Source: Bacteroidia bacterium (GTDB taxonomy: Bacteria; Bacteroidota; Bacteroidia; Bacteroidales; Prolixibacteraceae). From it: DNA of 33,291 bases. The first letter of the stretch is position 1. Every line of letters begins with the position of its first letter. Location: contig JAPLDR010000125.1 of the NCBI GenBank assembly GCA_026391655.1, forward strand, positions 25,459 to 58,749. The letters run 5' to 3'. Both the position numbers and the translations under genes were made by a program. The notes under the pieces were generated by a model. The model made no database searches. It was not told the origin of the DNA and saw nothing but the letters and a program-made list of their open reading frames with translations. Below, in pieces: positions 6,005 through 27,220 of this stretch.

Positions 6005-6038
6005 AACAAGCAATTGTGAGATTTATTAAATGTAGATA

Positions 6039-8997: not shown

Positions 8998-11208
8998 ATG
9001 AATAGAATTTTACGAATTTCCTCGGGATTCTTGTTATTGCTACTTTTTCTGACAGGATGTGTCAAGAAAGAGTTTGAAGCGTTTTACGCACGTCCGGACA
9101 ATTTGGCTCAACCTATTTATCAACAGTTGGAAGCCAGGAAAAACTTTACAAGTATATTGGCTTGTATTGACAAAGCAGGTTATAAGGGTATTTTAAGCAC
9201 TGCAGGTTACTGGACCTTTTTTGCACCTAACGACGCTGCATTTCAGAAATACTTTACTGAAAAGAACATCAGTAGTGTTGCTGCAATTGATTCTGTCACA
9301 GCAAAGAAGATTGTCACTTATTCTTTGGTGTACAATGCCTTCAGAAAAGATCAGCTGACTAATTACCAATCGTCCTTGGGTGTATTACCAAATCAGGCTT
9401 TCAAAAGAAAAACAGCCTACTATGACTTTGTACAAACTGAAAGTGGATCGACAAGGAAAATTGTGGCGTCAAACCGAAATGGATTATACGTTGCAGGCGA
9501 TAACAACAATAAGAACATTCCCTATTTTATAGATAATTTTATGACGACAAAGGGATTAAGCGCTTCTGATTATAATTTTTTCTACCCAAATGCAACCTAT
9601 TCAGGGTTTAACGTTGTTGATGCCACTGTTGTAAATGCTGATATCGTTGCTGAAAATGGCATAATCCATGAAATCGACAAAGTAGTACCTCCGCTTCCAA
9701 GTATTGAACAGTACATGGCTTCTAATTCTAATTATAACGAGTTCAGAAGTTTATTGCAAAAAAGAGCCTCCTATATGGCAAATGCTGACCTAAGTCATCG
9801 ATATCAGGTTTTAACAGGTTCTACAGATTCCGTTTACGTTAAACTCTATAGTAGCGATTTAGGTTTCTCTCCAAATAATGAAAACTATACAAGTGGGGGA
9901 ACAGACTCACAAATAGGTGGATTCGGATTTATGGCACCAACAAATGCGGAATTAAAAATTTACACTAAAGATTTATTGAAATATTTTGGATCGTTTGATG
10001 CCGCCCCGTCGGAAATTTTAAGAGACTTTATTAATGCCCACATGTGGAATTCACTTGTGTGGCCAAACAGGTTTGCTACTGCGGTAAATGTTCAGGGCGA
10101 AGTACCAACTATTACAACCGGGAACATTGTTGATAAGAAATTATTAAGTAATGGCATCTTTTATGGTACCAATAAGGTTCAGGAGGCAAATGTTTTCAGG
10201 ACCGTCTATTCAAAACCTTATCTCGATCCTCGTTACCTGCTTATGGTAAGGGGTCTTAATGCCGAACTAAAGTATTCCATCATAAACCCTGCTATTAAAT
10301 ACACTATGTTTATGATGCCTGATGTTTCAATAAAAGCAGCCTATTATGACTGGAGTACAAATTATAATAGCTGGTCATATGCTTTTCCCGGAGTTGCAGT
10401 CGTTTATTCTACAAAATCCAGAGACGATTTCTACAGAATCTTACAGACATCAGTTTCTCAGCCTACCACAAACCTTACCGATCTTTCGGGTCAGGGAATT
10501 GTGGAAATGTATAATGGTGAGTACATTTTATATAATGCGAATAAGATTTATGCCAGTGGAAATATTGACGCCGGTAACTACCTTGTAAAAGACAGTTCCC
10601 AAACAGTGATCAATGGAACAGTTTATTATACTCATGAAGTTGTACCTGCCGGCAAAACATCAACTGGTGGGTTATTAACATTTACAACCAAAGGGATTGG
10701 GGCTCATATTAATGCTTTAGCTGCTGCTGATGCCACATCTTTTGGGTCATTTAACAGCTATTTAATAAATTCTTCACTTTGGGATGCTGCGAATTTTGCG
10801 ATTATTGGAACTGTTGCGGGGAATTTTTACACAATATTGATTCCTACCAATGCCGCAATTGTGAATGCCGTTAAAGCCGGACTTCTTCCCGGTAATATAG
10901 CGACGGGGGTACCTAATTTTACCTCAGCCGTTCCTGCCGACCGGGACATGGTGGCGAAATTTATTCAATACCACATTTTAAATAAAAATACAGTGGTTCC
11001 AGATGGGAAAAAAGATGGTGCATTTGCAACTTTACTACAAAATAGTGCGGGAGATCCGACTTATGTCACGGTTATTAACCAGGTAAACATTATGCAGCTC
11101 AGAGATGCCTTTAACAAAAGTGTTAATGTAATTCTTGCAAAGAGCAATAATCTTTCGAACCGCGCCGTAATTCATTCAATTGATAACTATTTAAAATATA
11201 ACTACTAA
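8998..11208 (+). CDS. Fasciclin (FAS1) repeat lipoprotein, putative surface glycan-binding protein
   Basis: A 736-residue lipoprotein: the signal peptide ends in LTG-Cys21, followed by KKE. It contains what look like four FAS1 or FAS1-like repeats. Their first conserved strands are WTFFAPNDAAF (about 72-82), FGFMAPTNAEL (about 304-314), YTMFMMPDVSI (about 436-446) and YTILIPTNAAI (about 614-624). GIIHEIDKVVPP and AVIHSIDNYL are typical domain ends. FAS1 domains mediate adhesion and binding in many proteins. Here it is the first gene of the PUL and lies 5 bp before SusC-1, in the spot where SusE/F-like glycan-binding proteins are often found. Surface display and glycan binding are inferred from context. 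No catalytic motif is visible. Confidence 0.88.
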   Translation: MNRILRISSGFLLLLLFLTGCVKKEFEAFYARPDNLAQPIYQQLEARKNFTSILACIDKAGYKGILSTAGYWTFFAPNDAAFQKYFTEKNISSVAAIDSVTAKKIVTYSLVYNAFRKDQLTNYQSSLGVLPNQAFKRKTAYYDFVQTESGSTRKIVASNRNGLYVAGDNNNKNIPYFIDNFMTTKGLSASDYNFFYPNATYSGFNVVDATVVNADIVAENGIIHEIDKVVPPLPSIEQYMASNSNYNEFRSLLQKRASYMANADLSHRYQVLTGSTDSVYVKLYSSDLGFSPNNENYTSGGTDSQIGGFGFMAPTNAELKIYTKDLLKYFGSFDAAPSEILRDFINAHMWNSLVWPNRFATAVNVQGEVPTITTGNIVDKKLLSNGIFYGTNKVQEANVFRTVYSKPYLDPRYLLMVRGLNAELKYSIINPAIKYTMFMMPDVSIKAAYYDWSTNYNSWSYAFPGVAVVYSTKSRDDFYRILQTSVSQPTTNLTDLSGQGIVEMYNGEYILYNANKIYASGNIDAGNYLVKDSSQTVINGTVYYTHEVVPAGKTSTGGLLTFTTKGIGAHINALAAADATSFGSFNSYLINSSLWDAANFAIIGTVAGNFYTILIPTNAAIVNAVKAGLLPGNIATGVPNFTSAVPADRDMVAKFIQYHILNKNTVVPDGKKDGAFATLLQNSAGDPTYVTVINQVNIMQLRDAFNKSVNVILAKSNNLSNRAVIHSIDNYLKYNY

Positions 11209-11213
11209 GGCAT

Positions 11214-11570
11214 ATGAAATCTATTTCTACAAAACTATTTTATTGCTTCATTGCTTTAGTCATGCTTTTCAGTAATACATTGAAAGCACAAAAAGTAACT
11301 GAGAAGATTACTGTCAGGGGAAAGGTAATTGACAAAGCTGATAAAAATGCGATTATTGGAGGTTCAGTTGTTGAACGTGATAAAGACATGCGCTATATTA
11401 CAGGTGTAGCCACCGATATTGATGGGAACTTTGCAATTAAGATATCGAATCCTGCAAATCTTATCTCTTTTTCATATTTAGGTACAAAACAATCATCCTC
11501 CCTATTAAGGATAAAACTACCTTTAACATTGAACTTGAATCTGTTACTGCAGAATTGGCAGAGTTTGTAA
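11214..11570 (+). pseudogene. N-terminal part of frameshifted SusC/RagA-family TonB-dependent transporter (SusC-1)
   Basis: This frame encodes a signal peptide (MKSISTKLFYCFIALVMLFSN to LKAQ) and a carboxypeptidase-D regulatory-like domain (VRGKVIDKADKNAIIGG to GNFAIKI). It then enters FSYLG at codon 90, after which it becomes nonsense and stops. The normal continuation (YKTIILPIKDKTTFNIELESV) is found in the other frame, starting by re-using the T at 11483. One missing T in GGT-TAC restores a 1101-residue SusC of normal length. It is either a true frameshift or a sequencing/assembly error; if real, the transporter is inactive or depends on a rare recoding event. Confidence 0.85.
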
Positions 11571-14518
11571 TTACTTCCAGAGCTCCTACGAATAATGGAA
11601 CCGGTTTAAATGTTGAGGCGCGTAGTTCTACAATTGCAACTTCGACCCTCGAAGCTAAGGAAATACAGGAAGTTGGAGCCAGCTCTATTGATCAGGCGCT
11701 ATCGGGTCGTCTATCCGGTGTTGATGTTGGAACAACCACAGGTGATCCCGGGGCAGGAATGTCTATCCGTATCCATGGTACGGCTTCAATTAATGGTTCT
11801 GCCAACCCACTTATTGTTGTGGATGGAATGCCTTATGAAACACAAATTCCTTCGGACTTCAATTTTGGAACAGCAGATGAACAGGGTTATGCGCAGTTGT
11901 TAAATATTGCACCCACAGATATCAAAGACATCACTGTGTTGAAGGATGCAGCTTCAACTGCTGTATGGGGATCAAGAGCTGCCAATGGCGTTTTGATTAT
12001 TAACACGAAGCGTGGTTCAATCGGTAAACCTACAATTACTTATAATTTGAAAGCCTCTCTTTCAAGACAACCCAGTGCCATTCCTTTACTTAATGGAGAT
12101 CAGTATTCGACATTGATACCGGAAATGAAGATGAACGCTGACGGATTACCTTTGGATATTACAGCCAATAAGGAGTTTGCTTATGATCCGAACGATCCGT
12201 TAAATTATTACAACTACTCCCGAAATTCTGACTGGATAGGTGCAATCACTCAACTTGGGTATTCGATGGACCATAATGTTTCGATGCAAGGTGGTGGAGA
12301 AAAAGCAAGATATTATGCTTCCGTCGGGTATTTGAATCAAAAAGGAACTACTGTAGGCACAGGATTGGATCGAATCACAGCTAAAATAAATCTGGATTAC
12401 AATGTTTCAGACAGGATTCGATTTAAAACAGATATCACTTATACGCATGTTGCTAATGATTTTAACTATACCGGATCGGTCAGGAGTGTAGCTTACAATA
12501 AAATGCCCAATATGAGTATTTACAGGTACGATGAATACGGTAATCTGACACCTAATTATTTTTCTCCTGCTCAAAATATTCAGGGTTCTTATTTAGGTCT
12601 TGACAGTAAAGGAAATATTACGGGCACTAACAACACTGTTAACCCTGTGGCAATGGCTAATGTAGGAATCAATCATCAGTTAGGCGAAAGAATCACTCCT
12701 AAGTTTCAACTCCAATACTCCTTAATTCCTAATTCGGTATTGACTGCCACTTTTGATGTTCAGTTTGACATTAATAATTCCAAGACGCAAACTTTTTTAC
12801 CACAATTGGCAACCGGCAGACCGACAAATGAAGTATCAGTAAACCGTGCTACCGACAGTGACGGGGATGCATTGAATATTCAAACAAAAGCCAATCTTAT
12901 TTTTATACCTAAGCTTAAAGAAGGTCATGCTTTTCAGGCTCTGTTATCCTTTCAGTCAAACGATACGCGAAACATATCACATAATGTGGCGACAACGAAT
13001 ACAGCCTCAGATATTCTTCAGGATCCATCAAATCCCTCAAGAACCCAAAACTCTGATTTGAAATTAACCTCTGGCTCGAGCCAATACCGTTCAATGGGGG
13101 CTTTAATTTCAGGGCAATATGGATATTTGGATCGTTACCTGATTAATGTGGGTCTTCGGGCTGACGGGAATTCCAGATTTGGTCCCAGTAATCGTTACGG
13201 CTTATTTCCTTCTATATCAACAAGATGGCGAGTTTCTGGCGAACCATTTATGAAAAATGTAAAGTTTCTTGATGAATTGAGTTTTCGTGCCAGTTACGGA
13301 CACAGTGGTAATGTACCAGGTAAAGATTACACTTTCTATAATTATTACTCGCCTTACAATTATTCATATTTAGGAATGTCTGGTGTCTACCCTTCCAATA
13401 TGGAACTATCGAATCTTAAATGGGAAACATTAATCGGGAAGAACATCGGTTTTAATTTGGGCATTTTTAAAAATCGTGTGCGGATGGATGCCGAAGCTTA
13501 CCTGAATACAACAAGAGATATGTTTTATGATAAATTGCAAGTACCTACGTTTACCGGCTTTGGTACTGTTTCAATGAACGTTGGAACGATGGACAATTCG
13601 GGTTGGGAAATAAGTCTTAATACGATACCACTAAAAACGAAAAACTGGACTGTTGGTTTTGATTTTAATATTTCCAAAAACATCAATACGCTACGGTCGA
13701 TTTCTGAGTTCTATCCATCGACTAAAGGTAATATTACAACAAACGGAGTTTATCAGACATACCTTCAAATTGGAAATCCATTTGGATCTTACTATGGCTT
13801 TAAATATACAGGAGTTTACAAAGATGCGGATGCAACAATTGCAAGAGATGCAGCTGGTAACCAAATAATTGGTCCCAACGGACAGATTATCCAGATGCGT
13901 TTTAATTATCCTGCAACAGATTATCAGTTTAAACCCGGAGATGCGATGTACGAGGATATCAACCATGATGGTAATATTGACTATAAAGATGTCGTCTATC
14001 TTGGCAATGGAATACCAAAATTTACTGGAGGGTTTGGTCCGAGTATCACCTTCAAAAATAACCTGAAGCTTTCAGCTTTTTTCAATTATCGTTGGGGTTA
14101 TCAGTTGATTAATGGAACTAAAATGAGTACAACTAATATGTATAGTTTTAATAATCAGAGCACAGCGGTATTGAGCAGGTGGCGTAATCCGGGCGATGTA
14201 ACTGATATGCCAAGAGCATTGTACCGCAGTGGATATAACTGGCTTGGATCTGATAGATACGTGGAAGATGCATCATTTGTAAGACTAAGGTCTGTAACGC
14301 TGAGGTATAACTTCACTCCTGAGTTTTTGAAGAAGATTAATATGAAAACCGCAAGTTTTTATATCACTGCAGAGAACCTCTTTACCTGGACAAAATATAC
14401 GGGTCAGGATCCAGATGTATCGTCCAGGGGAGACAACGATCCGCTTTCGTACAATGTGGATAACTCTATGACTCCTCCGGGAAAGACAGTTTTGATAGGT
14501 ATAACGGTTGGATTTTAA
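11555..14518 (+). CDS. SusC/RagA-family TonB-dependent transporter SusC-1, plug and barrel
   Basis: Main body of SusC-1. The listed start (TTG) is not a credible initiation site; the open frame extends back to about 11483, where it joins the N-terminal fragment. It shows the end of the regulatory domain and TonB-box region (LAEFVITSRAP), and the plug domain with EVGASSIDQALSGRLSGV, IRIHGTASIN, PLIVVDGMPYE and DITVLKDAASTAVWGSRAANG. A 22-strand-type barrel follows, ending in the aromatic C-terminus VLIGITVGF needed for outer-membrane assembly. SusC proteins form the TonB-powered channel under a SusD lid and import oligosaccharides. Its partner SusD-1 begins 29 bp downstream. Apart from the single frameshift I see no damage, which suggests a very recent change or a sequence error. 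Confidence 0.9.
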   Translation: MAEFVITSRAPTNNGTGLNVEARSSTIATSTLEAKEIQEVGASSIDQALSGRLSGVDVGTTTGDPGAGMSIRIHGTASINGSANPLIVVDGMPYETQIPSDFNFGTADEQGYAQLLNIAPTDIKDITVLKDAASTAVWGSRAANGVLIINTKRGSIGKPTITYNLKASLSRQPSAIPLLNGDQYSTLIPEMKMNADGLPLDITANKEFAYDPNDPLNYYNYSRNSDWIGAITQLGYSMDHNVSMQGGGEKARYYASVGYLNQKGTTVGTGLDRITAKINLDYNVSDRIRFKTDITYTHVANDFNYTGSVRSVAYNKMPNMSIYRYDEYGNLTPNYFSPAQNIQGSYLGLDSKGNITGTNNTVNPVAMANVGINHQLGERITPKFQLQYSLIPNSVLTATFDVQFDINNSKTQTFLPQLATGRPTNEVSVNRATDSDGDALNIQTKANLIFIPKLKEGHAFQALLSFQSNDTRNISHNVATTNTASDILQDPSNPSRTQNSDLKLTSGSSQYRSMGALISGQYGYLDRYLINVGLRADGNSRFGPSNRYGLFPSISTRWRVSGEPFMKNVKFLDELSFRASYGHSGNVPGKDYTFYNYYSPYNYSYLGMSGVYPSNMELSNLKWETLIGKNIGFNLGIFKNRVRMDAEAYLNTTRDMFYDKLQVPTFTGFGTVSMNVGTMDNSGWEISLNTIPLKTKNWTVGFDFNISKNINTLRSISEFYPSTKGNITTNGVYQTYLQIGNPFGSYYGFKYTGVYKDADATIARDAAGNQIIGPNGQIIQMRFNYPATDYQFKPGDAMYEDINHDGNIDYKDVVYLGNGIPKFTGGFGPSITFKNNLKLSAFFNYRWGYQLINGTKMSTTNMYSFNNQSTAVLSRWRNPGDVTDMPRALYRSGYNWLGSDRYVEDASFVRLRSVTLRYNFTPEFLKKINMKTASFYITAENLFTWTKYTGQDPDVSSRGDNDPLSYNVDNSMTPPGKTVLIGITVGF

Positions 14519-14547
14519 TATATTGCTAAATAATAAATTTATTAAAG

Positions 14548-16047
14548 ATGATTCAAAAAATAAAATATTTAACATTACTCGCATTTACTGTAATGTTAAC
14601 TACATCCTGCAATAAATGGCTTGAATTAAAGCCGGAGGATGGAATTATCAGACAAAACTTCTGGAAAACTAAGGAAGATGTAAAATCTGCCGTAATAGGA
14701 TGTTACTCTTCTCTTTTAGGACCAATGGCGCAAACACTATTCATTTGGGGAGAAATAAGAGGCGACATGGTTTCTTCTACTATAACAAGCACCTCTGAGC
14801 AAATCGATATTATGAATGGCAATATTACTTCATCCAATACAATTACTAAATGGGGTACAATTTATCAAACGATTAACTATTGTAATACAGTTATCGATTT
14901 TGCGCCTCAGGTTCTGGTAACTGATAAAACATTAACAGAAGTTGATCTGAATGCCTATTTAGCAGAAGCACACGCTTTAAGAGGGTTAATGTATTTTTAT
15001 TTACTAAGAACATTTGGAGAGGTGCCTCTGCAAATTAAATCGACTTCGAGTGATAACCAACTTGAGCAATTAGCAAAAAGCTCACAAGAGGATGTCTATA
15101 ATCAGATTATTAAGGATCTGACTTTTGCCGAGGCTAACGCTGTTACAACGTACAATAACCACGACTATGATAAAGGTCGGATTACCAGATATACGGTTAA
15201 TGCCATTCAGGCTGATGTTTATCTTTGGATGGAAAAATACGCTGAATGCATTGATGCGTGTACTAAAGTTATTGGTTCAGGACAATTTGGATTGATTGCC
15301 GGTAAAAATCCTGATGGAATAGTTAATTCTCAATGGTTTAATACGGTTTTTTATAACGGAAATTCTAATGAGAGTATTTTCGAGTTCCAGTTCGACAGTC
15401 AACAGGTAAATCCGTTTTTTTCGTTTCTTATTAATACGACCAAACAATTTGTGGGCTCATCATTTGTTATGGACGAGATGTATACTGTTGATCCTTTGGA
15501 TGATACGAATAAAGATATTCGGGGTGATTTGTCTTCCATCCGAGGTAGTGATGGATTGATTTGGAAATTTGCCGGAGCCAATAACACCGGAAGTGTGAGA
15601 ACAGCAACTTCATCTTATGCACATTGGTTTGTATATCGTTATTCTGATATATTATTGATGAAAGCTGAAGCACTTGCATGGACAGGTAAAGGACAAGAAG
15701 CGCTTGATTTGGTAAAAGTCATTAGAAATCGTGCCAATGCACTTCCAGCTACTGAAAAAGCACCTGATCCTATTTCATCAGTGGATGTATCAGACTATAT
15801 TATGGAAGAGAGAGCGCGCGAATTTGCTTTTGAAGGGAAGAGATGGTATGATATTTTACGCAATTCAAAACGTAATAAGTATGCCCATATACAATTTTTA
15901 ATTGATATAGTGACTAAAAGCGCACCGTCTAACAGGCAACAATATATCCTGAACAAGTACAAAGATATTCGAAGTCATTATCTGCCTATTAATTTGTATG
16001 AATTGCAGACGGATAAGAATTTGGTGCAAAACCCTTTTTACCAATAA
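14548..16047 (+). CDS. SusD/RagB-family nutrient-binding outer membrane lipoprotein SusD-1
   Basis: A 499-residue SusD-family lipoprotein with lipobox TTS-Cys21 and the classic opening NKWLELKPEDGI. It has TPR-like helices (AHALRGLMYFYLLRTFGEVPL at about 144-164 is a signature block) and the conserved C-terminal YIMEERAREFAFEGKRWYDILR. SusD proteins sit as a lid on the SusC channel and bind the incoming glycan. It follows SusC-1 by 29 bp and clearly belongs to the same operon. The protein appears complete, although its SusC partner is frameshifted. Confidence 0.95.
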   Translation: MIQKIKYLTLLAFTVMLTTSCNKWLELKPEDGIIRQNFWKTKEDVKSAVIGCYSSLLGPMAQTLFIWGEIRGDMVSSTITSTSEQIDIMNGNITSSNTITKWGTIYQTINYCNTVIDFAPQVLVTDKTLTEVDLNAYLAEAHALRGLMYFYLLRTFGEVPLQIKSTSSDNQLEQLAKSSQEDVYNQIIKDLTFAEANAVTTYNNHDYDKGRITRYTVNAIQADVYLWMEKYAECIDACTKVIGSGQFGLIAGKNPDGIVNSQWFNTVFYNGNSNESIFEFQFDSQQVNPFFSFLINTTKQFVGSSFVMDEMYTVDPLDDTNKDIRGDLSSIRGSDGLIWKFAGANNTGSVRTATSSYAHWFVYRYSDILLMKAEALAWTGKGQEALDLVKVIRNRANALPATEKAPDPISSVDVSDYIMEERAREFAFEGKRWYDILRNSKRNKYAHIQFLIDIVTKSAPSNRQQYILNKYKDIRSHYLPINLYELQTDKNLVQNPFYQ

Positions 16048-16072
16048 TTTAATGATTTAATAACAGAATAAA

Positions 16073-17776
16073 ATGAAAAGGATTTCAACAATAAACAGAC
16101 TGATTGGCATCATGATAAGCTTTGTGTTGCTAATAGGAATATGGGAATGCAAACAAGAAGCACTTGTTTATACTACGACAAGTGACACAAATATTACTGC
16201 ATATTTAGACAAATATCCCGAGAGTTTTTCCGAATTCAGAAAAATTTTGGACCTGACCGGCACTGCAAGTTATCTTAATGCTTATGGAGCTTATACGCTT
16301 TTTGCGCCAACCAATGATGCTATTAAAGCGTATCTTGTGGAAAAAGGAAAAACAACTATCGACCAGGTCGATGTTGCTGAACTTAAAGATTTAGTGAGAT
16401 TTCATCTTTTATCGGACACCATTCGGTCAAACACCTTCACTGATGGAAAGCTACCTTCGCTTACCATGTTTGGGCAATATCTGATAACAGGCGCTAAAAA
16501 CGTAGCTGGAATAACCAAGGTTGTTGTAAACAGACAAGCAAATATTCTTCAGGCCGACATTACTTTGGGTAATGGGATTATCCACGTAATTGATCATGTA
16601 TTAATACCTGCAAAATTTAGTGTAGCTCAGCTTATTGAAAACAATGCGAAATATTCTATTTTTAATCTGGCATTAAAAGCTACCGGATTGTATGATACCC
16701 TGAATATATTACCAGCCAATAATCCAATTACAAATAGAAAATTTCTTACTGTTTTGGCTGAATCTGACTCTGTATTAAAGGCTGCCGGGTTCAAAGACTA
16801 TGCAGCTTTAAAGGCAAAATATTGCACAACTGGTGATCCTAAAAGCATAACTGATAGTTTACACCTTTTTATGGCTTATCACATTCTTTATGACGCAAAA
16901 TATCTTGCTGATATTGCTTCGTCGCAGTCTCAGACTACTCTTGCTCCGCTTGAAATAGTTACTTCAAACCTGGTGGGAACAACCATATTAATTAATGATG
17001 TTACTTTTCTTGGAATTCATGAACCTGGAGCCCCGCTTGACAGAGCTGCAAGTGATAATTCTGCCACTAATGGTGTATTTAATAGTGTATCACAACATTA
17101 CATTTTGAAAATACGGAAACCGGTACGCGTAGATTGGGATGTTGCCGATCAACCTGAAATTCGGAAATTGACTTCTATTTTCCGTAAATCGACTACTACA
17201 GTATCCTGGACAAAAACAGCTGGCAATCCATTTGTGGATATTGACTGGCAAGATGGTGCAATGGCTTTCGGTCCGGTATATTCATGGAGTCTTACCAGTA
17301 CAATTACCAGATATATGTTATACAGTGATATGTTAATGCTTCAATCCGGTGGCCCTAACCGAGTCCTTTGGTGGGAATTCAGAACTCCTTTAATTGTCCG
17401 GGGAAAATACAAGGTTTGGGTTGGTTACAGGAATCAAAAACAATCGGGAAGTTCAACAAATGTTAATCAGATTTTGGTTGACGGAGTAGCTTTACCTAAG
17501 TTGCTCGAGTTTACTGTTGCCAGACCAGTAGGAACCGATGCTGAACTTGAAGCTCAGGGATGGAAACAATATTCTGAAAATGCAGACGCCGTAGTTGGTG
17601 CCCGGTTATTAGGTGTCATCGATATTAAAACTACTGATCGTCATATTTTGAGAATTCAAAATATCTCAGGAACTCAGAATAACAACAATTTAGATCTCAT
17701 TCAATTTATTCCGATTAACGATGATCAGGTGTATCCGCGTTTTAAACCAGATGGAACCCTGATACCAAGGCCATAA
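16073..17776 (+). CDS. FAS1 lipoprotein with C-terminal carbohydrate-binding-like beta-sandwich
   Basis: A 567-residue protein. The signal peptide ends near IWE-Cys26, an unusual but possible lipobox. FAS1 domain 1 (about 40-180) has YTLFAPTNDAI, VRFHLL and GIIHVIDHVL. FAS1 domain 2 (about 180-350) is more divergent, with FMAYHILYD and a GVFNSVSQHYIL end. The C-terminal 190 residues form a predicted all-beta module containing GKYKVWVGYRN, QILVDGVALPK, HILRIQNISG and the closing LDLIQFIPI, which recalls CBM6/CBM35-type sandwiches that end in a conserved Asp-x-Ile/Phe strand. The next protein has a related tail. It lies 25 bp after SusD-1. Surface glycan binding is inferred from domains and context. 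Confidence 0.85.
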   Translation: MKRISTINRLIGIMISFVLLIGIWECKQEALVYTTTSDTNITAYLDKYPESFSEFRKILDLTGTASYLNAYGAYTLFAPTNDAIKAYLVEKGKTTIDQVDVAELKDLVRFHLLSDTIRSNTFTDGKLPSLTMFGQYLITGAKNVAGITKVVVNRQANILQADITLGNGIIHVIDHVLIPAKFSVAQLIENNAKYSIFNLALKATGLYDTLNILPANNPITNRKFLTVLAESDSVLKAAGFKDYAALKAKYCTTGDPKSITDSLHLFMAYHILYDAKYLADIASSQSQTTLAPLEIVTSNLVGTTILINDVTFLGIHEPGAPLDRAASDNSATNGVFNSVSQHYILKIRKPVRVDWDVADQPEIRKLTSIFRKSTTTVSWTKTAGNPFVDIDWQDGAMAFGPVYSWSLTSTITRYMLYSDMLMLQSGGPNRVLWWEFRTPLIVRGKYKVWVGYRNQKQSGSSTNVNQILVDGVALPKLLEFTVARPVGTDAELEAQGWKQYSENADAVVGARLLGVIDIKTTDRHILRIQNISGTQNNNNLDLIQFIPINDDQVYPRFKPDGTLIPRP

Positions 17777-17790
17777 ATATAAGCAGTTGC

Positions 17791-17818
17791 TCTCCTGCAA
17801 TAGAAATATTGCAGGAGA
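17791..17818 (+). promoter_or_regulatory. Perfect 12-bp hairpin with GAAA tetraloop between two FAS1 genes
   Basis: The arms 17791-17802 and 17807-17818 are perfectly complementary around GAAA, a stable GNRA tetraloop. No T-run follows on either strand, so it is not a normal intrinsic terminator. Its place inside the operon, between two FAS1 genes 78 bp apart, fits an mRNA-stabilising or processing element that sets different expression levels on its two sides. Confidence 0.6.
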
Positions 17819-17854
17819 AAATTAACAAAGTATTAATAATTTAGAAGTAGAAAA

Positions 17855-19336
17855 ATGATCGCAATTAAAAATCAGTATTTCATCTTCCTCTCTTTATTCA
17901 TAGGTTTATTTTTATCGGGTTGTACGGATAAATGGGAAGATCATAACAAAATTCAGGATTCGATTCTTGCAGAAAATCTGCTTGCGCAAATAAAGACAAA
18001 CCCGGACCTGAGCAAATTTGCCGATTATCTGAATAAAACCGGATATGATAAGGTTGTCGCTTCCTCTAAAACATTTACAATCTGGGCTCCGACAAACCTG
18101 GCACTGCAAAATCTGGATCCTGCTATCGTGAATGATACAGCTAAATTGAAACCGTTTGTTGCGAACCATATATCAAATCAGTCGTACCTTACAAGTATGC
18201 CAAACCCGTTGCTTACTATCAGAACCTTAAACGGCAAAAATATCTTGTTTACCAAAACAAAATTTGAAGAAGCTAATATTGTAACCGCTAACCGGTATGT
18301 GGGGAATGGTGTTTTACACACGATTGATTTGGGGATTCTTCCTAAATTGAATGCCTGGGAATATTTAAACAACACCGCCACTTCATTACAAAAAACATTT
18401 TTGCTATCTCAAAGTTACATCTTCAGAGATTCAACAAGAGCTGTAGTAATCGGAATAGATCCAAAGACTGGTATTCCAATTTTGAAGGAAGGTACAGGTT
18501 ATTTCCCCAAAAACTATTTTCTTCAACGCGTAGCAGATGTAAGCAATGAAGATGCGAAGTATATTTATGTAATTTTGACAGACGCTGCTTTCACTGCCGA
18601 AAAGGCCAAGCTTTCCAAATATTTTACTGTAAATGACCCAATTAAAACGCCTGCCCGCAATACTTTCATTTCGGATAGTATTACCAACTGGAATATCGTA
18701 AAGGACCTGGCTTTTAAAGGTGATTATACTTTAGCTACTTTACCCGACACATTAACTTCAAACGATAGCATAAGGATTCATTTGGATAAGACTGCTATCG
18801 TACAATCTATAAAGGTAAGCAATGGTGTTGTTTTTATAATGAACCGCATTGATTATAAGATGTCGCGTAAAATTAAACCTGTGATTATTGAGGGTGAATA
18901 CTATGTTAGCAACTACGGGAATAATGGTACCCGGACTACAATTACACGCAGGAATCCTAATACGAATGTGGACTTCAGGGAAATTTATTATTATAACACC
19001 GGAGTTTCTTCATATTGGATTAAATACCAACCAACTGTGTACACTGCATCCTATAAAGTATATTGGGTGGCAGTACGGGATTTTAATACTACAGCTGTAG
19101 CACCGGCAGTCCCCGTTATGTTCTCTCAGCGGCTTGCATTTGGTACTACTGCTTTATTACCAGCTTTCCCTTATAAGCAAGTTGACATTTTGAATTACAA
19201 TGAGGTTTATTTGGGAGATTACACAGTTACCAGCTATGGAAAAATGGATACATTTTTGGTTGGAGCTGCAAATACAACAAATGGACAAAATTCACTAGTT
19301 CTCGATTATATTAAAATGGTACCCGTAATAAATTAA
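17855..19336 (+). CDS. FAS1 lipoprotein with C-terminal beta-sandwich, second copy type
   Basis: A 493-residue lipoprotein with a clear lipobox (LSG-Cys23, then TDKWEDH). FAS1 domain 1 (about 40-170) shows TFTIWAPTNLAL, FVANHISN and GNGVLHTIDLGI. A second, divergent FAS1-like unit (about 175-345) has IYVILTDAAF and ends NGVVFIMNRIDY. The last 145 residues are all-beta and close with LVLDYIKMVPV, matching in pattern the LDLIQFIPI end of the preceding FAS1 protein. No catalytic residues are evident. It is 4 bp upstream of SusC-2, so it is tightly coupled to the second transporter pair and is probably its dedicated surface glycan-binding partner. Confidence 0.85.
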   Translation: MIAIKNQYFIFLSLFIGLFLSGCTDKWEDHNKIQDSILAENLLAQIKTNPDLSKFADYLNKTGYDKVVASSKTFTIWAPTNLALQNLDPAIVNDTAKLKPFVANHISNQSYLTSMPNPLLTIRTLNGKNILFTKTKFEEANIVTANRYVGNGVLHTIDLGILPKLNAWEYLNNTATSLQKTFLLSQSYIFRDSTRAVVIGIDPKTGIPILKEGTGYFPKNYFLQRVADVSNEDAKYIYVILTDAAFTAEKAKLSKYFTVNDPIKTPARNTFISDSITNWNIVKDLAFKGDYTLATLPDTLTSNDSIRIHLDKTAIVQSIKVSNGVVFIMNRIDYKMSRKIKPVIIEGEYYVSNYGNNGTRTTITRRNPNTNVDFREIYYYNTGVSSYWIKYQPTVYTASYKVYWVAVRDFNTTAVAPAVPVMFSQRLAFGTTALLPAFPYKQVDILNYNEVYLGDYTVTSYGKMDTFLVGAANTTNGQNSLVLDYIKMVPVIN

Positions 19337-19340
19337 TAAA

Positions 19341-22300
19341 ATGCTTCCAACTAAACTCAATTTTATGTATATATTTATAAAAGCGGCCAAGAGAGTATTA
19401 TTATTGAGCTTGATTATTGCGCTAACAACCATTTATTCAATTGCTCAAAATAACTCAGCTGAAAGTACATCAACTGTTGTAACCAAACAAAAAAATGGTG
19501 AATTTAAGGTAACTGGAACAGTGAAAGAGGCTTCTACAGGAAAAGCTTTACCTGGTATAAATATCAGCGTCCCCGGATATTCTGCTGCCTTAACTGATGA
19601 CAAAGGATTTTTCAGTATAACTGTAACGGATAAAAGCGCGTCTTTGATGGTTTCCGGTCCCGGTTTTCAGAGAAGAGAAGTTCCACTAAAGGGAAGATCA
19701 TCAATTGACGTTAGTTTATTCGAAGATTCATACAACTCAGTATACGATGAGGCGCATATGCCTTATGGGAATGTACCGTTAAATCAAATTGCCCACTCAG
19801 TCACTTCGTTTAATACAACTGGTAATTGGGAACGTGCTACGGAAACTCCGGATTCCTGGTTACAGGGTAGGGTGGTTGGTCTGAATGCCGTCAGACGCTC
19901 GGGTACACCTTCAATTGGCGCTGATTTATTCCTTCGCGGATTTAATTCATTATATGCCACTAACCAGCCATTATACGTTGTCGATGGTGTTATTTATGAT
20001 GTAAATTCCTATGGTAACTCTCTTATTACCGGCCACGCAACTAATCCTATGGCAGATATAGATATTAAGGATATTGATAATGTTACTGTGATTAAAGATG
20101 GTGCCTCAATGTATGGCACAAGGGGTGGAAATGGGGTCATATTAATTACGACCAGTGTTGCCAAAGAGGTGGCTACAAAAATTGACTTTGCAGTTTATGG
20201 CGGATTTAATTCAACTCCAAAACTGATTCCGGTAATGAAGGCAGGTGATTACCGTACTTATTTATCAGATCTATTAAAAACCACCGGTCTGAATGACGAT
20301 CTGATTCAGTCGTTGCCCTTTATGAATGATAATACTTCAAATCCTGATTATTACCGGTATCACAACGAGACCAACTGGCAGAATGAGGTGATGAAGAATA
20401 GCTTTAACCAGAATTATCATTTAAGAGTTACCGGAGGTGATGATATTGCAAAATATGCATTGTCACTTGGATATACTACTAATAAGGGGATTATAACCAA
20501 TACTGGCTTAACCCGTTATTTTATGCGGTTCAATGCTAATTTGAAATTATCTTCAAGATTAACAGCCAATGCTAATCTCGCCTTTACCAGTAGTCAGCAG
20601 GATCTCAAAGACCAGGGAATTAATATTAAAACTAATCCGTTATACCTGGGATTAGTTAAAGCACCGTTTCTTCCAATCTATCAAATGGGAGACGATGGTG
20701 CACAATCTCCTAATTTAGCTGATACCGATATCTTTGGGATCAGTAACCCTTCAGCTGCAATTCAAAAAATACAGGATCTTAACAAGAATTATCGTTTCTC
20801 CGGATCATTCAGCCTACGATATGAATTATCCAGAAATTTTAATATCAATACGATAATAGGTTTAACATTTGACAAAGTTCGCGAAAATATCTTTGTGCCT
20901 AATAATGGTATTGCGCATGATACTGTAAGTCTTGCCATTGCATCCAATAGATCAGGTAGTAACGTTCAGCGTTTATTCTCATTATACAATGATACACGAA
21001 TCTCATATAACCAGACATTCGATAATATTCATAATATTTCTGCCAATATCGGAGCAAGATATAACAGCAGTAGTAGCCAGTCCGATTACGGATTGGGATA
21101 CAATTCAGCTACTGATAATTTTGTGAGTGTTGGAAATGGTTCAATCTCATTACGAAAAGTTGGTGGAGAAATCGGAGATTGGAACTGGTTAAATACGTAT
21201 TTTAATACTGATTATAAATTATTGAGCCGGTATTTCTTGTCCTTCAATGTCGCTTTTGATGGATCGTCCAGATTTGGAAAAAAAATTCATGATGGAATGG
21301 CACTTACTTGTGAAGACAATAAATTTGCAATTCTTCCTTCAATTGCTGCCGGTTGGTTGGTTTCTTCTGAAAAATTCATGTCGAAGTTTAATTTTGTTGA
21401 TATGTTGAAATTAAGGACCAGCTATGGATTAACAGGAAATGATGATATCGGAAATTATACCTCCAGGCAATATTACGTTTCACAAAACTTGTTGGGAATG
21501 GAAGGGCTTGTCAGGGGAAACATTGGTAATCCACAACTAAAATGGGAAAATGTAGCAAAGTTTGATTTGGGCATGGATGCTTCGCTTTATAATGAGCGTC
21601 TAAGCTTTAGTTTTGATGTTTTCAAAAACAAAACTACTGATATGATTACTTTTGAGCCCATCAATACTGCCAGCGGTTTTCCATATGCCATTACAAATAA
21701 TAGTGGTATGAAAACCAGCGGCGTAGAACTGGCTGTAAACGGAAGAATATTAAATCGTACAATCAAATGGGATATTGGTTTGAATCTGAGTACATCAAAG
21801 AACCAAATTACCAAAATTCCCAATGATAAACTGATCACCACTACATTTGGCGGAGCTTCAATTTTAACTGAAGTTGGTAAAGCTGCAAATTTATTTTACG
21901 GATATAAAACAAGCGGAGTGTATGCTACACAAACTGAAATCTCCGGGCAGTTCAATAGAACTGCAAGCGGTAACTTAGTTCCTTTTCAGGCTGGTGATGT
22001 CAGGTTCGTAGATAAAAATGGCGATAAAATTATTGATGAAAAGGATATGCAGGTAATTGGAAACCCAAATCCTGATTTTGTTGGTTCATTTAGTAATGTT
22101 ATTTCATGGAAAAGGTGGTCATTTGATGCGCTGATTACTTTCAGCAAAGGCAATGATATTTATAATTATACCCGTGCTAAATTGGAGTCGATGTCGGGAG
22201 GCGAAAATCAGATGCCACGGGTTATAAACAGGTGGAGAGCTGAAGGGCAAGTTACCAATGTTCCAAGAGCTGCCTGGGGAGATCCTTCCGGTAATTCAAG

Positions 22301-22562
22301 ATTTTCGGATCGTTGGATTGAGGATGGCTCGTATATTCGCCTAAGGACTTTATCTTTAACCTTCGATTTCCCTGTCAAAGAAGGATATTTAATCAAATAT
22401 GCCAAGATTTACGCTACAGGGAATAATCTGCTTACGCTCACTAAATATTTGGGTTATGATCCTGAATTCAGTGCGACAGGCAGTGTGTTTTCACAAGGAG
22501 TTGATATTGGTTTTGAACCACAGTTCAGATCAATACAATTGGGTGTAAGAATTGGTTTATAA
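19341..22562 (+). CDS. SusC/RagA-family TonB-dependent transporter SusC-2
   Basis: An intact 1073-residue SusC-family protein. The signal peptide fits best from the second Met (MYIFIKAAKRVLLL to SIAQ), so the true start may be 19365 instead of 19341. It has a carboxypeptidase-like domain (FKVTGTVKEASTGKALPGINI, residues about 54-74 onward). The plug contains WLQGRVVGLNAVRRSGT, LFLRGFNSLYATNQPLYVVDGV and VTVIKDGASMYGTRGGNGVILI, and the barrel ends RSIQLGVRIGL. The linker before the plug is longer and different from SusC-1, so the two transporters are diverged, not recent duplicates. It pairs with SusD-2, 36 bp downstream. Its likely role is import of a second oligosaccharide class from the same polysaccharide. 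Confidence 0.94.
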   Translation: MLPTKLNFMYIFIKAAKRVLLLSLIIALTTIYSIAQNNSAESTSTVVTKQKNGEFKVTGTVKEASTGKALPGINISVPGYSAALTDDKGFFSITVTDKSASLMVSGPGFQRREVPLKGRSSIDVSLFEDSYNSVYDEAHMPYGNVPLNQIAHSVTSFNTTGNWERATETPDSWLQGRVVGLNAVRRSGTPSIGADLFLRGFNSLYATNQPLYVVDGVIYDVNSYGNSLITGHATNPMADIDIKDIDNVTVIKDGASMYGTRGGNGVILITTSVAKEVATKIDFAVYGGFNSTPKLIPVMKAGDYRTYLSDLLKTTGLNDDLIQSLPFMNDNTSNPDYYRYHNETNWQNEVMKNSFNQNYHLRVTGGDDIAKYALSLGYTTNKGIITNTGLTRYFMRFNANLKLSSRLTANANLAFTSSQQDLKDQGINIKTNPLYLGLVKAPFLPIYQMGDDGAQSPNLADTDIFGISNPSAAIQKIQDLNKNYRFSGSFSLRYELSRNFNINTIIGLTFDKVRENIFVPNNGIAHDTVSLAIASNRSGSNVQRLFSLYNDTRISYNQTFDNIHNISANIGARYNSSSSQSDYGLGYNSATDNFVSVGNGSISLRKVGGEIGDWNWLNTYFNTDYKLLSRYFLSFNVAFDGSSRFGKKIHDGMALTCEDNKFAILPSIAAGWLVSSEKFMSKFNFVDMLKLRTSYGLTGNDDIGNYTSRQYYVSQNLLGMEGLVRGNIGNPQLKWENVAKFDLGMDASLYNERLSFSFDVFKNKTTDMITFEPINTASGFPYAITNNSGMKTSGVELAVNGRILNRTIKWDIGLNLSTSKNQITKIPNDKLITTTFGGASILTEVGKAANLFYGYKTSGVYATQTEISGQFNRTASGNLVPFQAGDVRFVDKNGDKIIDEKDMQVIGNPNPDFVGSFSNVISWKRWSFDALITFSKGNDIYNYTRAKLESMSGGENQMPRVINRWRAEGQVTNVPRAAWGDPSGNSRFSDRWIEDGSYIRLRTLSLTFDFPVKEGYLIKYAKIYATGNNLLTLTKYLGYDPEFSATGSVFSQGVDIGFEPQFRSIQLGVRIGL

Positions 22563-22598
22563 TTCCGGACAGCATTTAAATAATATAATGAAGCTATT

Positions 22599-24380
22599 AT
22601 GAAAAAGAAATTATCAAAGATATTTATAACTGTTTTCTCGGTAATGATATGCCTGAGTATCCTTTCCTGTAGTAAAATGTTTGATATAGAGCCTAAATCA
22701 GCTGTGTCATCTGAACAAATGTATCGAAATGTTTATGATGCAGATGCTGCTGTAATAGGCATATATGGGAAGTTTCTGAATGTTGTAGACCGATATGTTA
22801 TACTGAATGAATTAAGATCTGATCTGGCAGATGTAACACCAAATTCCAATCAATATTTAAAACAATTGAGTACGCATACAGTTACGGTGGACAACCCTTA
22901 CGCTGATCCAAGGCCGTTTTATGAAGTCATTTTGAACTGTAATGATGCTTTGAAGAATTTTGATATTATGCGAAGCGAATTAAAGATGACGGAAGATGAA
23001 TATAAGCAACGGTATTCAGATATTGGTGCATTGCGTACATGGTTGTATTTTCAGTTAGGTATTCAATATGGGAATATTCCTTATGTTACAGAACCGATTG
23101 AAAATCTCAGGGATCTTCAAAATGAAGCAAAATTTCCCCGGATTGGTTTTGACCAGTTATTGAATAATCTGATACAGTTTACTGAGTCATTGCCATTTAA
23201 ATATCCATATCCTACAGGGAGTTCACTTTTAAGTACATATGATACTTATTATACTGAAAAAATATTCATCAATAAGAATTGTCTTCTTGGCGATTTATAT
23301 TTATGGAAAGGGAGTTGGACACAAGCTGCCACAGCCTATCGGGAAGTTGTTAGAGTTGGTGGAATCCCATACAATGTAGTAAGCCCGGGGGAACAATATT
23401 ATGAATATTACATGTTAGCTTATACTGCTAATACTAATGGGGGAAATTGGGCAAATATTTTTCGCAATCCATTTGGTGAACGTTACTCAAATTACGAAAT
23501 CATGTGGAACCTGCCTTTTGACAAAAACTTTAATCCGAAAAATCCATTTATTGATTTGTTCTCCACTTCAGGTAGTTACCTGATAAAACCCTCTGATTTG
23601 GCCATCAATAATTGGAATGCTCAGCTACGAAATGACAATGGTACTTTACCGGGTACTCCTACCGATATAAGAGGTAACGGAATCTCTTATAGAATGGTGG
23701 GAGGTCTTCCAGAAATAAATAAATACACCTATAATTATAGTCCATTGCTTCCTTTTGAAACAAACGGAAAGGTAATTCTTTATCGTGGTGCTAATTTATT
23801 CCTGCGGTTTGCAGAAGCTGCAAATCATGACGGGCGCGACAGAATTGCCTATTGTTTTCTTAATGATGGGATTAGCCGAAATTATGATCCTGTTCCGGGC
23901 GGAGGTAATTCAAGAGATGTTACAAATATACAACAAACCAGGTTTGGAGATTATCTCACGGGGCCATATGAAACTGCACCCTATTATTTTGATGCACGTG
24001 TAGGAGACTATCCTCAGTTCAGGAATGGTTGGTATCGTGCTGTCGGTTTAAGATCAAGAACATCAAATATGAATTTAGCTGTTGATTCAACCAGATCATT
24101 CAATATGGCTGTTAGACCACGCGTTGTGACCAACAGAGTAAACCTGATAAACGATTTGGATGACCTTCTTATTGCCGAATCGGGATTGGAAACTGCTTTT
24201 GAAGGAAACAGATGGGGAGACTTGCTAAGAATTGCCTTAAGAAGAAAGGCTACTGATCCAAACTATCTGGCCAATAAAATCGGCGCTAAGTTTGATGCCG
24301 CTCATAGCGCTGATGCAGCTGCTGTCAGGGCTAAATTAACAGATCCTGCCAATTGGTATTTACCTTTCAGGTGGAAATAA
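22599..24380 (+). CDS. SusD/RagB-family lipoprotein SusD-2
   Basis: A 593-residue SusD-family protein with lipobox ILS-Cys24 and the opening SKMFDIEPKSAVSSEQMY. Recognisable blocks are YGKFLNVVDRYVILNELRSD, the helical ALRTWLYFQLGIQYGNIPYV and the C-terminal ESGLETAFEGNRWGDLLRIALRR. It is about 90 residues longer than SusD-1, with the extra length in the glycan-facing middle region (about 260-480), consistent with recognition of a different or larger ligand. It is the last gene before an intrinsic terminator, so it ends the FAS1-SusCD transcription unit. Confidence 0.94.
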   Translation: MKKKLSKIFITVFSVMICLSILSCSKMFDIEPKSAVSSEQMYRNVYDADAAVIGIYGKFLNVVDRYVILNELRSDLADVTPNSNQYLKQLSTHTVTVDNPYADPRPFYEVILNCNDALKNFDIMRSELKMTEDEYKQRYSDIGALRTWLYFQLGIQYGNIPYVTEPIENLRDLQNEAKFPRIGFDQLLNNLIQFTESLPFKYPYPTGSSLLSTYDTYYTEKIFINKNCLLGDLYLWKGSWTQAATAYREVVRVGGIPYNVVSPGEQYYEYYMLAYTANTNGGNWANIFRNPFGERYSNYEIMWNLPFDKNFNPKNPFIDLFSTSGSYLIKPSDLAINNWNAQLRNDNGTLPGTPTDIRGNGISYRMVGGLPEINKYTYNYSPLLPFETNGKVILYRGANLFLRFAEAANHDGRDRIAYCFLNDGISRNYDPVPGGGNSRDVTNIQQTRFGDYLTGPYETAPYYFDARVGDYPQFRNGWYRAVGLRSRTSNMNLAVDSTRSFNMAVRPRVVTNRVNLINDLDDLLIAESGLETAFEGNRWGDLLRIALRRKATDPNYLANKIGAKFDAAHSADAAAVRAKLTDPANWYLPFRWK

Positions 24381-26203: not shown

Positions 26204-27220
26204 ATGAAACGACTTAAATATTTGTCTTTATTTCTGTTCTTTCTCAGTTTATTAACCCCAAATATCCTTTTGGCACAAAAGAACAGTCAGGGCAAACTGG
26301 CAGATAAACCTTTGTTCAGAGATCCGATTTTTGATGGAGCAGCAGACCCTGCAATTATCTGGAATAAAAGTGAAAAGAGGTGGTTTATGTTTTATACCAA
26401 CCGCAGGGCAAATTCCAAAAATGAAACTGGTGTTACATGGGTTCATGGAACGCGCATCGGTATTGCAGAATCTTCTGATAATGGAGCGACCTGGAAATAT
26501 CGCGATACAGCCAATATCAACTACAGGCCAACTCCAGAATACACACATTGGGCACCTGAAGTTATTGAACATAAAGGTCTTTATCACATGTATCTTACTT
26601 ACGTTCCCGGAATCTTTACCGATTGGAATCATCCGCGGGAGATTCTTCATCTCACAAGCACTGATTTACTCAATTGGAAATATGAATCGACTTTGCAACT
26701 GGCATCTGACAGGGTAATCGATGCATGTGTAATTCAAATGCCTGATGGCAAATGGCGCTTGTGGTATAACAACGAAAAAGATAGTAAATCAATCTATTAT
26801 GCCGATAGTCCCGATTTATATACCTGGCAGGATAAAGGAAAGGCAGTTGGTGACAGAAGCGGAGAGGGGCCAAATGTATTTAAGTGGAAAAATAAGTATT
26901 GGATGCTGGTGGATAATTGGGCAGGAATGGGACTCTATTATTCAGTTGATATGCTGAACTGGACAAAGCAGCCAGATCGTATTCTTGAAAAACCTGGTAC
27001 AGGATCCGAAGATGGTGCTATGGGCGGACATGCAGATGTAATTGTCAGTGGCGACCGAGCTTTTGTAATTTATTTTCTGCATCCCGGTAGGGGCAAGGCA
27101 TCTTCCGGAAATCCGACAGATTCACGACGAAGTCTGATTCAGATTGCCGAACTGGAATATGAGAATGGAAATATAACCTGCAATCGCGATAAACCAGTGT
27201 ATATTAAGTTAAAACATTGA
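26204..27220 (+). CDS. Five-bladed beta-propeller glycosidase, GH43/GH117-like (clan GH-F type)
   Basis: A 338-residue secreted protein (signal peptide ending NILLAQ). It reads as a five-bladed propeller with repeated W-x-MFYT / YHMYLTY / WRLWYNN / YWMLVDNW / FVIYFL strands, one per blade. Three acidic residues fall where clan GH-F enzymes keep them: Asp48 in DGAADPA (base), Asp173 in RVIDACV (pKa modulator) and Glu221 in SGEGPNV (acid). A conserved His in GGHADV (residue 276) may bind a metal or substrate. In this locus, an alpha-L-arabinofuranosidase or beta-galactosidase-type activity on RG-I side chains is plausible. The exact family is not settled by eye, and it may belong to an uncharacterised subfamily. 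Confidence 0.8.
   Translation: MKRLKYLSLFLFFLSLLTPNILLAQKNSQGKLADKPLFRDPIFDGAADPAIIWNKSEKRWFMFYTNRRANSKNETGVTWVHGTRIGIAESSDNGATWKYRDTANINYRPTPEYTHWAPEVIEHKGLYHMYLTYVPGIFTDWNHPREILHLTSTDLLNWKYESTLQLASDRVIDACVIQMPDGKWRLWYNNEKDSKSIYYADSPDLYTWQDKGKAVGDRSGEGPNVFKWKNKYWMLVDNWAGMGLYYSVDMLNWTKQPDRILEKPGTGSEDGAMGGHADVIVSGDRAFVIYFLHPGRGKASSGNPTDSRRSLIQIAELEYENGNITCNRDKPVYIKLKH

Follow-up and report, generated by a model that had tools for sequence, protein, structure and literature searches.

Fasciclin-type lipoproteins accompany two SusC/SusD pairs in a rhamnogalacturonan I-type locus of a Prolixibacteraceae bacterium and recur with them across Bacteroidota

The stretch of DNA analysed here, referred to as the window, comprises 33,291 nucleotides of contig JAPLDR010000125.1 (positions 25,459 to 58,749, forward strand) from a Bacteroidia bacterium of the family Prolixibacteraceae, whose genome assembly (GCA_026391655.1) consists of 5.0 Mb in 149 contigs. 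It holds a block of seven genes at 8998-24380, all running in one direction, which encode a lipoprotein built of FAS1 (fasciclin) domains (FA), a first transporter pair (SusC1 and SusD1), two lipoproteins that combine FAS1 domains with a beta-sandwich (FB and FC) and a second transporter pair (SusC2 and SusD2). An initial annotation, made from the letters of the sequence, had the gene order and the gene coordinates right and placed the end of the block at 19336; SusC2 and SusD2 extend it to 24380. The absence of a SusE/SusF-like protein, which it had also noted, holds for the Pfam families of SusE/SusF, as none of them matched any of the seven block proteins at E 0.1.

FA (8998..11208, +) is a lipoprotein of 736 aa with the lipobox LTGC21 and four FAS1-like units, matched by the Pfam family Fasciclin (PF02469) in three stretches (E 1.2e-20), and no domain besides FAS1 was found in it. 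Its AlphaFold2 model, based on a 10-row alignment (mean predicted local distance difference test score, pLDDT, 71.8), has the four-FAS1 protein TGFBIp as its best Foldseek match in the PDB over 732 alignment columns (E 1.4e-23), supporting the four FAS1 units that had been proposed for FA; the whole-chain TM-score is only about 0.3, indicating that the match does not extend to how the domains are placed relative to one another. FB (16073..17776, +) is a lipoprotein of 567 aa anchored at Cys26, in which two FAS1 stretches (PF02469, E 6.7e-25) are followed by a predicted C-terminal beta-sandwich resembling a carbohydrate-binding module (CBM), located in the DUF5108 region. The FB model (pLDDT 70.6) matches TGFBIp and periostin by Foldseek and, in addition, carbohydrate-binding modules, namely MiXBM (2.5e-5), CBM35 of Clostridium thermocellum (1.9e-4), these two giving the C-terminal fold match to the CBM35/CBM6-like group, and that same CBM35 in complex with delta-4,5-anhydrogalacturonic acid (2w47, 1.6e-3). 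FC (17855..19336, +), of 493 aa and anchored at Cys23, is matched by Fasciclin in one stretch (1.4e-16), and its profile aligns with that of FB over 452 columns, starting close to the lipid anchor and reaching the C-terminus (E 3.8e-35). Because the profiles align over these 452 columns, FB and FC are judged to be paralogues sharing the layout lipid-FAS1-FAS1-sandwich; a second FAS1 unit, undetected by Pfam, is probable in FC. PF02469 scores over the cut-off in all three proteins; the structure prediction that had been suggested as a check modelled the FAS1 units of FA and FB, and FC was judged from the profile comparison.

All three proteins, where at least two had been expected, begin with a signal-peptide-like segment and carry a cysteine of the lipobox type (C21 in FA, C26 in FB and C23 in FC), of which the one in FB is the least canonical (WEC). 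This cysteine is invariant in the alignments of FB (35 sequences) and FC (30 sequences). In the set of named loci described below together with the window, a loose rule finds the lipobox cysteine in 63/63 FA, 74/78 FB and 61/62 FC proteins, and a stricter motif in 61/63, 59/78 and 54/62, respectively, as against 12/67 SusC1. An acidic residue lies within six positions after the loose-rule cysteine in 58 FA, 63 FB and 58 FC proteins, and in 59/68 SusD1 and 56/62 SusD2. Acidic residues after the lipobox cysteine favour surface export in Bacteroidota.

SusC1 (11214..14518, +) is a TonB-dependent transporter in which a frame change near 11480-11570 separates an open reading frame (ORF) at 11214-11570, which covers the signal peptide and the N-terminal part of the protein, from a second one at 11555-14518 that holds the rest and carries the matches to TIGR04056 (6e-193) and to the SusC signature TIGR04057. 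The gene is a single ORF of 1090 aa in the close relative L031/L046 and consists of two ORFs also in L060; the frame change may be an assembly error or a real lesion, which are indistinguishable here. SusD1 (14548..16047, +) is a lipoprotein matched by SusD_RagB (1.1e-33) and SusD-like_3 (1.1e-17), and its best PDB matches by sequence are the SusD homologs 9sje/9sm2 (E 5.3e-28) and 9sjj/9sjk (2.1e-24). SusC2 (19341..22562, +), the second SusC, is diverged, contains a CarboxypepD_reg-like domain (Plug 2.6e-10, CarbopepD_reg_2 1.6e-8) and is found at the same place in the order in relatives, and SusD2 (22599..24380, +) is a diverged lipoprotein that passes SusD-like_3 at 4.7e-6 with 27.4 bits (cut-off 27); SusD_RagB stayed below its cut-off for SusD2, and a PDB search by sequence gave no match at 0.001. 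Both pairs consist of adjacent genes for a SusC and a SusD lipoprotein, as in polysaccharide utilization loci (PULs) of the SusCD type, and the FAS1 proteins are encoded next to them, as is typical of the lipoproteins known as surface glycan-binding proteins (SGBPs). Across the 5.0 Mb of the host genome 19 matches to SusD_RagB were found and four to PF02469, all four of them in FA, FB and FC.

A search of a collection of species genomes with the FB alignment, which required an exact FAS1 peptide pattern, yielded 372 confirmed relatives, and the best 80 were kept as named loci. All seven genes stand in order in 54 of these best 80, two of them with an extra SusC-like gene downstream; six have all genes but FC, and 16 are partial, rearranged or cut. 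A SusC or SusD gene lies on the same strand within the examined stretch in 76/80, FA directly precedes SusC1 in 66/80, and both kinds of SusC are present in 69/80, with six of the seven loci that have one kind ending at a contig or stretch end, L103 being the exception. The closest named relative by FB is a Prolixibacteraceae metagenome-assembled genome (L046, 80% identity), and the named genera include Flavobacterium, Leeuwenhoekiella, Zunongwangia, Gramella, Aestuariibaculum, Pedobacter, Mucilaginibacter, Sphingobacterium, Niabella, Thermoflavifilum and Pontibacter; Prolixibacteraceae, Marinilabiliaceae, Dysgonamonadaceae and rumen Bacteroidales are further named groups with FB relatives. 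Within a set of 41 genomes made up of the host and its relatives, FAS1 matches occur in 22, some of them spaced like FA...FB-FC, and the loci with this spacing that were examined have the same order in several genera and two families. Median intergenic gaps in 80 complete blocks are 8.5-27 bases, values that are lower bounds as each ORF was started at its first start codon. Matches of hidden Markov models (HMMs) below 60 bits are ignored in the block counts, and one survey of the relatives left out unlabelled ORFs below 300 aa.

The linkage is also apparent in an even draw of 296 genomes of the phylum, with four candidates scored per genome. Nine longer FB matches came from this draw apart from the window itself, seven near-full-length and two extending past the FAS1 pair. 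The block is present at all of these other FB-type loci (9/9), seven with FC and two without, and in the two loci lacking FC the second SusD scores as SusD1-type. At 1e-12 the FB profile matches 127/296 genomes, among the matches listed nearly all through the FAS1 part only. At the order level the block is carried by 20/20 loci (all 12 with a match to DUF5108 and eight picked by hand), 19 of them with FC. The sets of loci overlap (G047:C2, for instance, is NZ_FPCJ01000001.1), so they are not independent. The recurrent FAS1-SusCD linkage that the initial annotation had put forward for a count of gene neighbourhoods is thus found, both in the 54 full blocks and in the phylum draw.

This linkage was not revealed by a search with PF02469 alone (148 phylum genomes, 68 with FAS1), in which many of the FAS1 matches listed fall into short ORFs, roughly 170-230 aa long, and it became visible with the profile specific to FB. 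As a control, 11 other FAS1 loci were picked by hand from these listed matches. Some unrelated SusDs escape the HMMs made for the block (an example is L190:10559-11962, SusD-like_3 by Pfam), and the 11 genomes were therefore searched with two Pfam SusD families. Neither PF14322 nor PF07980 has a match in the stretches examined around these loci (10.7 and 13.3 kb for the two that lie on short contigs), and SusD genes were found elsewhere in 10 of the 11 genomes. One control locus has a single SusC-like ORF (L184, 68 bits) and another a short weak one (L186, 26 bits). In genome G073, with 34-37 SusD matches, those of the block stand beside the FB-type gene and none stands at the other FAS1 locus examined. 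As the FB-type loci of the phylum draw carry the block in 9/9 cases and the 11 other FAS1 loci have no SusD in the stretches examined, FAS1 domains in general are not tied to SusCD, whereas one FAS1 subfamily is.

The seven genes diverge together. Among 48 loci with seven single-copy complete genes, their distance matrices correlate with r 0.91-0.98, and median identities are 27% for FC, 34% for FB, 35% for FA and 46% for SusC1. These correlations were too uniform to resolve which FAS1 protein is paired with which transporter. Four genomes of 2.3-2.7 Mb (G418, G502, G569 and G605) have four near-full-length or long FB-type matches each among those listed, with four candidates scored per genome, which suggests that the blocks serve several glycans there.

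The arrangement resembles that of a characterised locus. According to a review (PMC8002723), the PUL for rhamnogalacturonan I (RG-I) in Bacteroides thetaiotaomicron spans BT4145-BT4183, with BT4164/BT4165 and BT4168/BT4169 as its SusC/SusD pairs and BT4167 as an RG-I-binding SGBP. One further paper labels BT4164-BT4169 as SusC, a DUF5108 protein, hypothetical proteins and a TonB-dependent receptor, without specifying which gene has DUF5108, and another places BT_4163 in the same PUL (PMC10434189, PMC13088901). In our data DUF5108 (PF17133) falls in the C-terminal part of FB in 15/15 located matches, 3/3 in the phylum draw (one over the cut-off) and 12/12 in the order draw, with two further matches in G614; in three such proteins that were scanned singly both Fasciclin and DUF5108 were found. 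Like the window, BT4163-BT4169 (PUL77) has two SusC/SusD pairs flanking two genes, with RG-I enzymes around, and the published order SusC-SusD-X-X-SusC-SusD with RG-I lyases nearby is also that of the window, in which the lyase is a PL11 enzyme. By the published descriptions, order and label fit, so that FA appears to correspond to BT4163, and FB and FC to BT4166 and BT4167, and we infer that one of the X genes of the window encodes an SGBP. Unlike the window, the B. thetaiotaomicron PUL has a larger enzyme set, as reviewed (PMC8002723).

The initial annotation had regarded the locus as the best candidate for an undescribed system. This reading was rejected, as a characterised RG-I PUL shares the order, includes BT4167, described as an RG-I-binding SGBP, and carries the DUF5108 label within BT4164-BT4169. 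The word fasciclin does not occur in PMC10434189 and PMC13088901, and no description of FAS1 in SusCD loci was found in the open-licence literature searched, where one paper has fasciclin beside SusC and SusD, in its reference list only. The locus is therefore of a known kind, being a SusCD importer of the RG-I PUL type; its variant form, with FAS1 proteins and two transporters, we did not find described as such in that literature.

The enzymes encoded around the block speak to its substrate. Downstream of SusD2 lie a PL11 rhamnogalacturonan lyase (27388..29280, +; RGL11_C 3.6e-207, RGI_lyase 3.8e-22), a beta-galactosidase-like GH2 enzyme (29298..31643, +; GH2 domains, with the GalB model below its cut-off) and a GDSL esterase, possibly a rhamnogalacturonan acetylesterase of family CE12 (31762..32544, +; PF13472 8.2e-13), and a GH106 rhamnosidase follows outside the window (L126:2949-5723, E 2e-73). 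Carbohydrate-active enzymes with a coherent substrate are thus linked to the two SusCD pairs. As the matches to PL11 and GH106 are strong, RG-I is a sound substrate prediction for the window, in agreement with the RG-I locus that had been proposed.

Elsewhere the substrates vary, as far as can be judged from flanks scanned as hand-chosen subsets of ORFs and tallied by family rather than labelled gene by gene. The block of G047 is flanked by GH28 (twice), GH106, GH88, PL4-type domains and an oligogalacturonate lyase, the pooled flanks of two loci in G293 hold PL11 (twice), GH106, GH88, GH95, GH28 and RhaT, and RhaT was also found around G190/G073 (pooled). The DUF5108-bearing and related order-level loci (pooled) have pectate lyase, GH28, GH88, pectinesterase and GH106, and also a BT1760-like GH32. 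The Flavobacterium loci G061 and G242 showed no pectin enzyme among 25 listed of 46 flank families; the flanks of G018, G020 and G031 contain GH5, GH10 and GH115 among others, and no pectin enzyme among 25 listed of 63 families. In G309 and G042 (L175 and L176) a diverged six-gene block without FC lies among several BNR-repeat, N-acetylneuraminate epimerase (NANM), DHDPS and SASA genes, an instance of FAS1 lipoproteins accompanying SusCD for a glycan other than pectin. These sialic-acid loci, and the flanks whose listed families include no pectin enzyme, led us to give up a reading restricted to RG-I. The block is pectin-leaning and not specific to RG-I. A similar gene order may be present in the RG-II locus BT1024-BT1030 of B. 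thetaiotaomicron, in which BT1028 is labelled RagB/SusD.

Based on our data we propose, as the probable explanation and the best of those considered, that the FAS1 lipoproteins serve as a capture part beside two SusCD importers, with the sandwich as the binding element and the FAS1 domains as spacer or scaffold. The seven genes would then encode the proteins with which an RG-I utilisation locus captures and imports its glycan at the outer membrane: two different SusCD pairs would import RG-I oligosaccharides and three surface lipoproteins would occupy the position of SusE/SusF, that is, of the SGBPs. FB and FC would be held by their N-terminal lipid anchor, with the FAS1 domains rising from the membrane and the CBM-like sandwich at the free end, where it may bind the pectin chain, perhaps at the unsaturated galacturonic acid ends made by the PL11 lyase. 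Rhamnogalacturonan lyases make such ends according to published work, so that CBM35 in its complex with unsaturated galacturonate offers an attractive, if tentative, model. In FB the modelled C-terminal sandwich seems a likelier glycan binder than the FAS1 domains, and FA, which has FAS1 domains only and is encoded beside SusC1, probably plays a structural part instead, most likely as a scaffold or partner next to SusC1. We infer that the lipoproteins are exposed at the surface, bind glycan via the sandwich and contact SusCD. The earlier suggestion that FAS1 proteins stand in place of SusE/SusF is borne out in position, with lipoproteins next to SusCD in a recurrent block; the role specific to RG-I that came with it is contradicted by the sialic-acid loci.

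The division into spacer and binding head is proposed by analogy with the levan SGBP and with DUF1735. Like the block, the levan and dextran utilisomes combine a SusCD importer with lipid-anchored multi-domain surface lipoproteins, and the levan SGBP has Ig-like N-terminal domains where the block has FAS1 domains (PMC7618045). These utilisomes are SusCD dimers with an SGBP and a surface hydrolase and use one kind of SusCD, whereas the block has two kinds and no hydrolase gene inside the seven. SusE/SusF and the DUF1735 lipoproteins likewise stand beside SusCD with an N-terminal spacer, the role proposed for DUF1735 (PMC11216935), and C-terminal functional domains; their spacer has an Ig-like fold, in contrast to the FAS1 domains of the block, which has no SusE/F Pfam match. 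TGFBIp and periostin share with FA the chain of four FAS1 domains, matched over the length of FA, and yet they are eukaryotic matrix proteins without SusCD, with about 14% identity. With CBM35 and MiXBM, FB shares the fold of the C-terminal sandwich, and the similarity in sequence is marginal.

An alternative is that it is the FAS1 domains that bind the glycan and pass RG-I on to SusCD. That FA consists of FAS1 units only and directly precedes SusC1 in most named loci points to a use of FAS1 beyond carrying a sandwich, and yet FB carries a CBM-like domain apart from its FAS1 domains, FC is paralogous to FB over its full length, and the levan SGBP binds glycan by its C-terminal domain with two N-terminal domains leading up to it (PMC7618045); we consider binding by FAS1 unlikely. 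Somewhat less likely again is that the block properly serves a different glycan, pectic or with acidic sugars (RG-II, or a glycan family containing uronate or sialate), with RG-I as only one case. The diverged blocks among the BNR-repeat, NANM and DHDPS genes of G309 and G042 speak for it, as do the flanks with GH5, GH10 and GH115 or with a GH32 gene and as would a similar order at BT1024-BT1030, whereas PL11, GH106, the GDSL esterase and GH2 of the window, together with the pectin and RG-I enzymes at the G047 and G293 loci, argue for RG-I.

FAS1 is also a classical adhesion fold, with TGFBIp and periostin as the closest solved folds, and the lipoproteins could be adhesins to the plant cell wall or to other cells, co-transcribed with SusCD and standing outside the importer. 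We find this quite improbable: the FAS1 genes lie before and between the SusCD genes in an order kept over the phylum, the 11 other FAS1 loci have no SusD nearby, and the B. thetaiotaomicron gene at the corresponding position is described as an SGBP in the review (PMC8002723). Chance neighbourhood or a one-off insertion of FAS1 genes would agree with an imported cassette, no other FAS1 having been found in the host genome, and is refuted by the recurrence of the same order in many genera, leaving it next to no probability.

Several observations weigh against FAS1 lipoproteins as the capture part beside two importers. No SusC or SusD lies in the examined stretch around four of the 80 named FB-type genes (L077, L100, L109 and L114), and L103 has the second pair only, with 8.4 kb before the first block gene devoid of FA, SusC1 and SusD1. 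Co-divergence would result from shared inheritance as well as from physical contact, the correspondence with BT4163-BT4169 was drawn from the gene order in print and a single family label, and FB of the window itself falls below the DUF5108 cut-off (E 0.018). The FB model has weak stretches in the sandwich, and the CBM matches were placed on the sandwich by our own reading of a Foldseek table without aligned ranges, a placement helped by the fact that the sandwich profile alone finds MiXBM and 2w47, weakly. This profile is only faintly CBM-like, with xanthan lyase as its best match (0.0011), followed by MiXBM (0.028) and 2w47 (0.98), and the best match of the FC sandwich profile, MiXBM, is weak as well (0.041). 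Finally, the loose lipobox rule admits some unconvincing cysteines in FB.

The wide joint retention of the two unlike SusCD pairs suggests that they work together. It is conceivable that all seven belong to a single obligate machine, with the FAS1 lipoproteins holding two non-identical SusCDs side by side, a hetero-transporter utilisome for branched acidic glycans such as RG-I, sialoglycans and others; such a complex would be unlike the levan and dextran utilisomes, and we regard it as a speculative idea that is more probably wrong than right. The retention of both pairs makes a single complex with two transporters directly testable. The combination of FAS1-FAS1-sandwich lipoproteins with two SusCD pairs provides a sequence signature for a class of importer extending from Flavobacteriia to rumen Bacteroidales. 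It also suggests a purpose for the DUF5108 or fasciclin-type genes beside SusCD and gives an old adhesion fold a role in glycan capture that can be tested.

Some loci depart from the usual layout. The FB-type gene of L077 lies between two GH2-like genes and adjoins an unlabelled ORF of 1227 aa; in L103 it is enlarged to 973 aa, possibly by fusion, and is followed by SusC2-SusD2; and the block of L098 is rearranged to FB, FA, SusC1, SusD1 and FC, after which the stretch ends.

In the remainder of the window, SusD2 is followed by a SASA-type carbohydrate esterase (24579..26144, +; PF03629 5.9e-22) and a GH43-like hydrolase (26204..27220, +; PF04616 3.3e-10), and the start of a further GH2 gene (32572..33291, +) runs off the window with a frame change beyond its end, the continuation (L126:31-2930) being split into ORFs 31-783 and 927-2930. 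As two genes are split, SusC1 and this terminal GH2, the assembly may have several frame errors. Upstream of the block, an ORF at 2318-3175 (-) carries STFK and KTG motifs and, from these motifs, presumably resembles a class D beta-lactamase or a related penicillin-recognising protein, and the adjacent genes at 4165-5040 and 5093-6013 (-) are related and acyltransferase-like, tandem duplicates as judged by eye.

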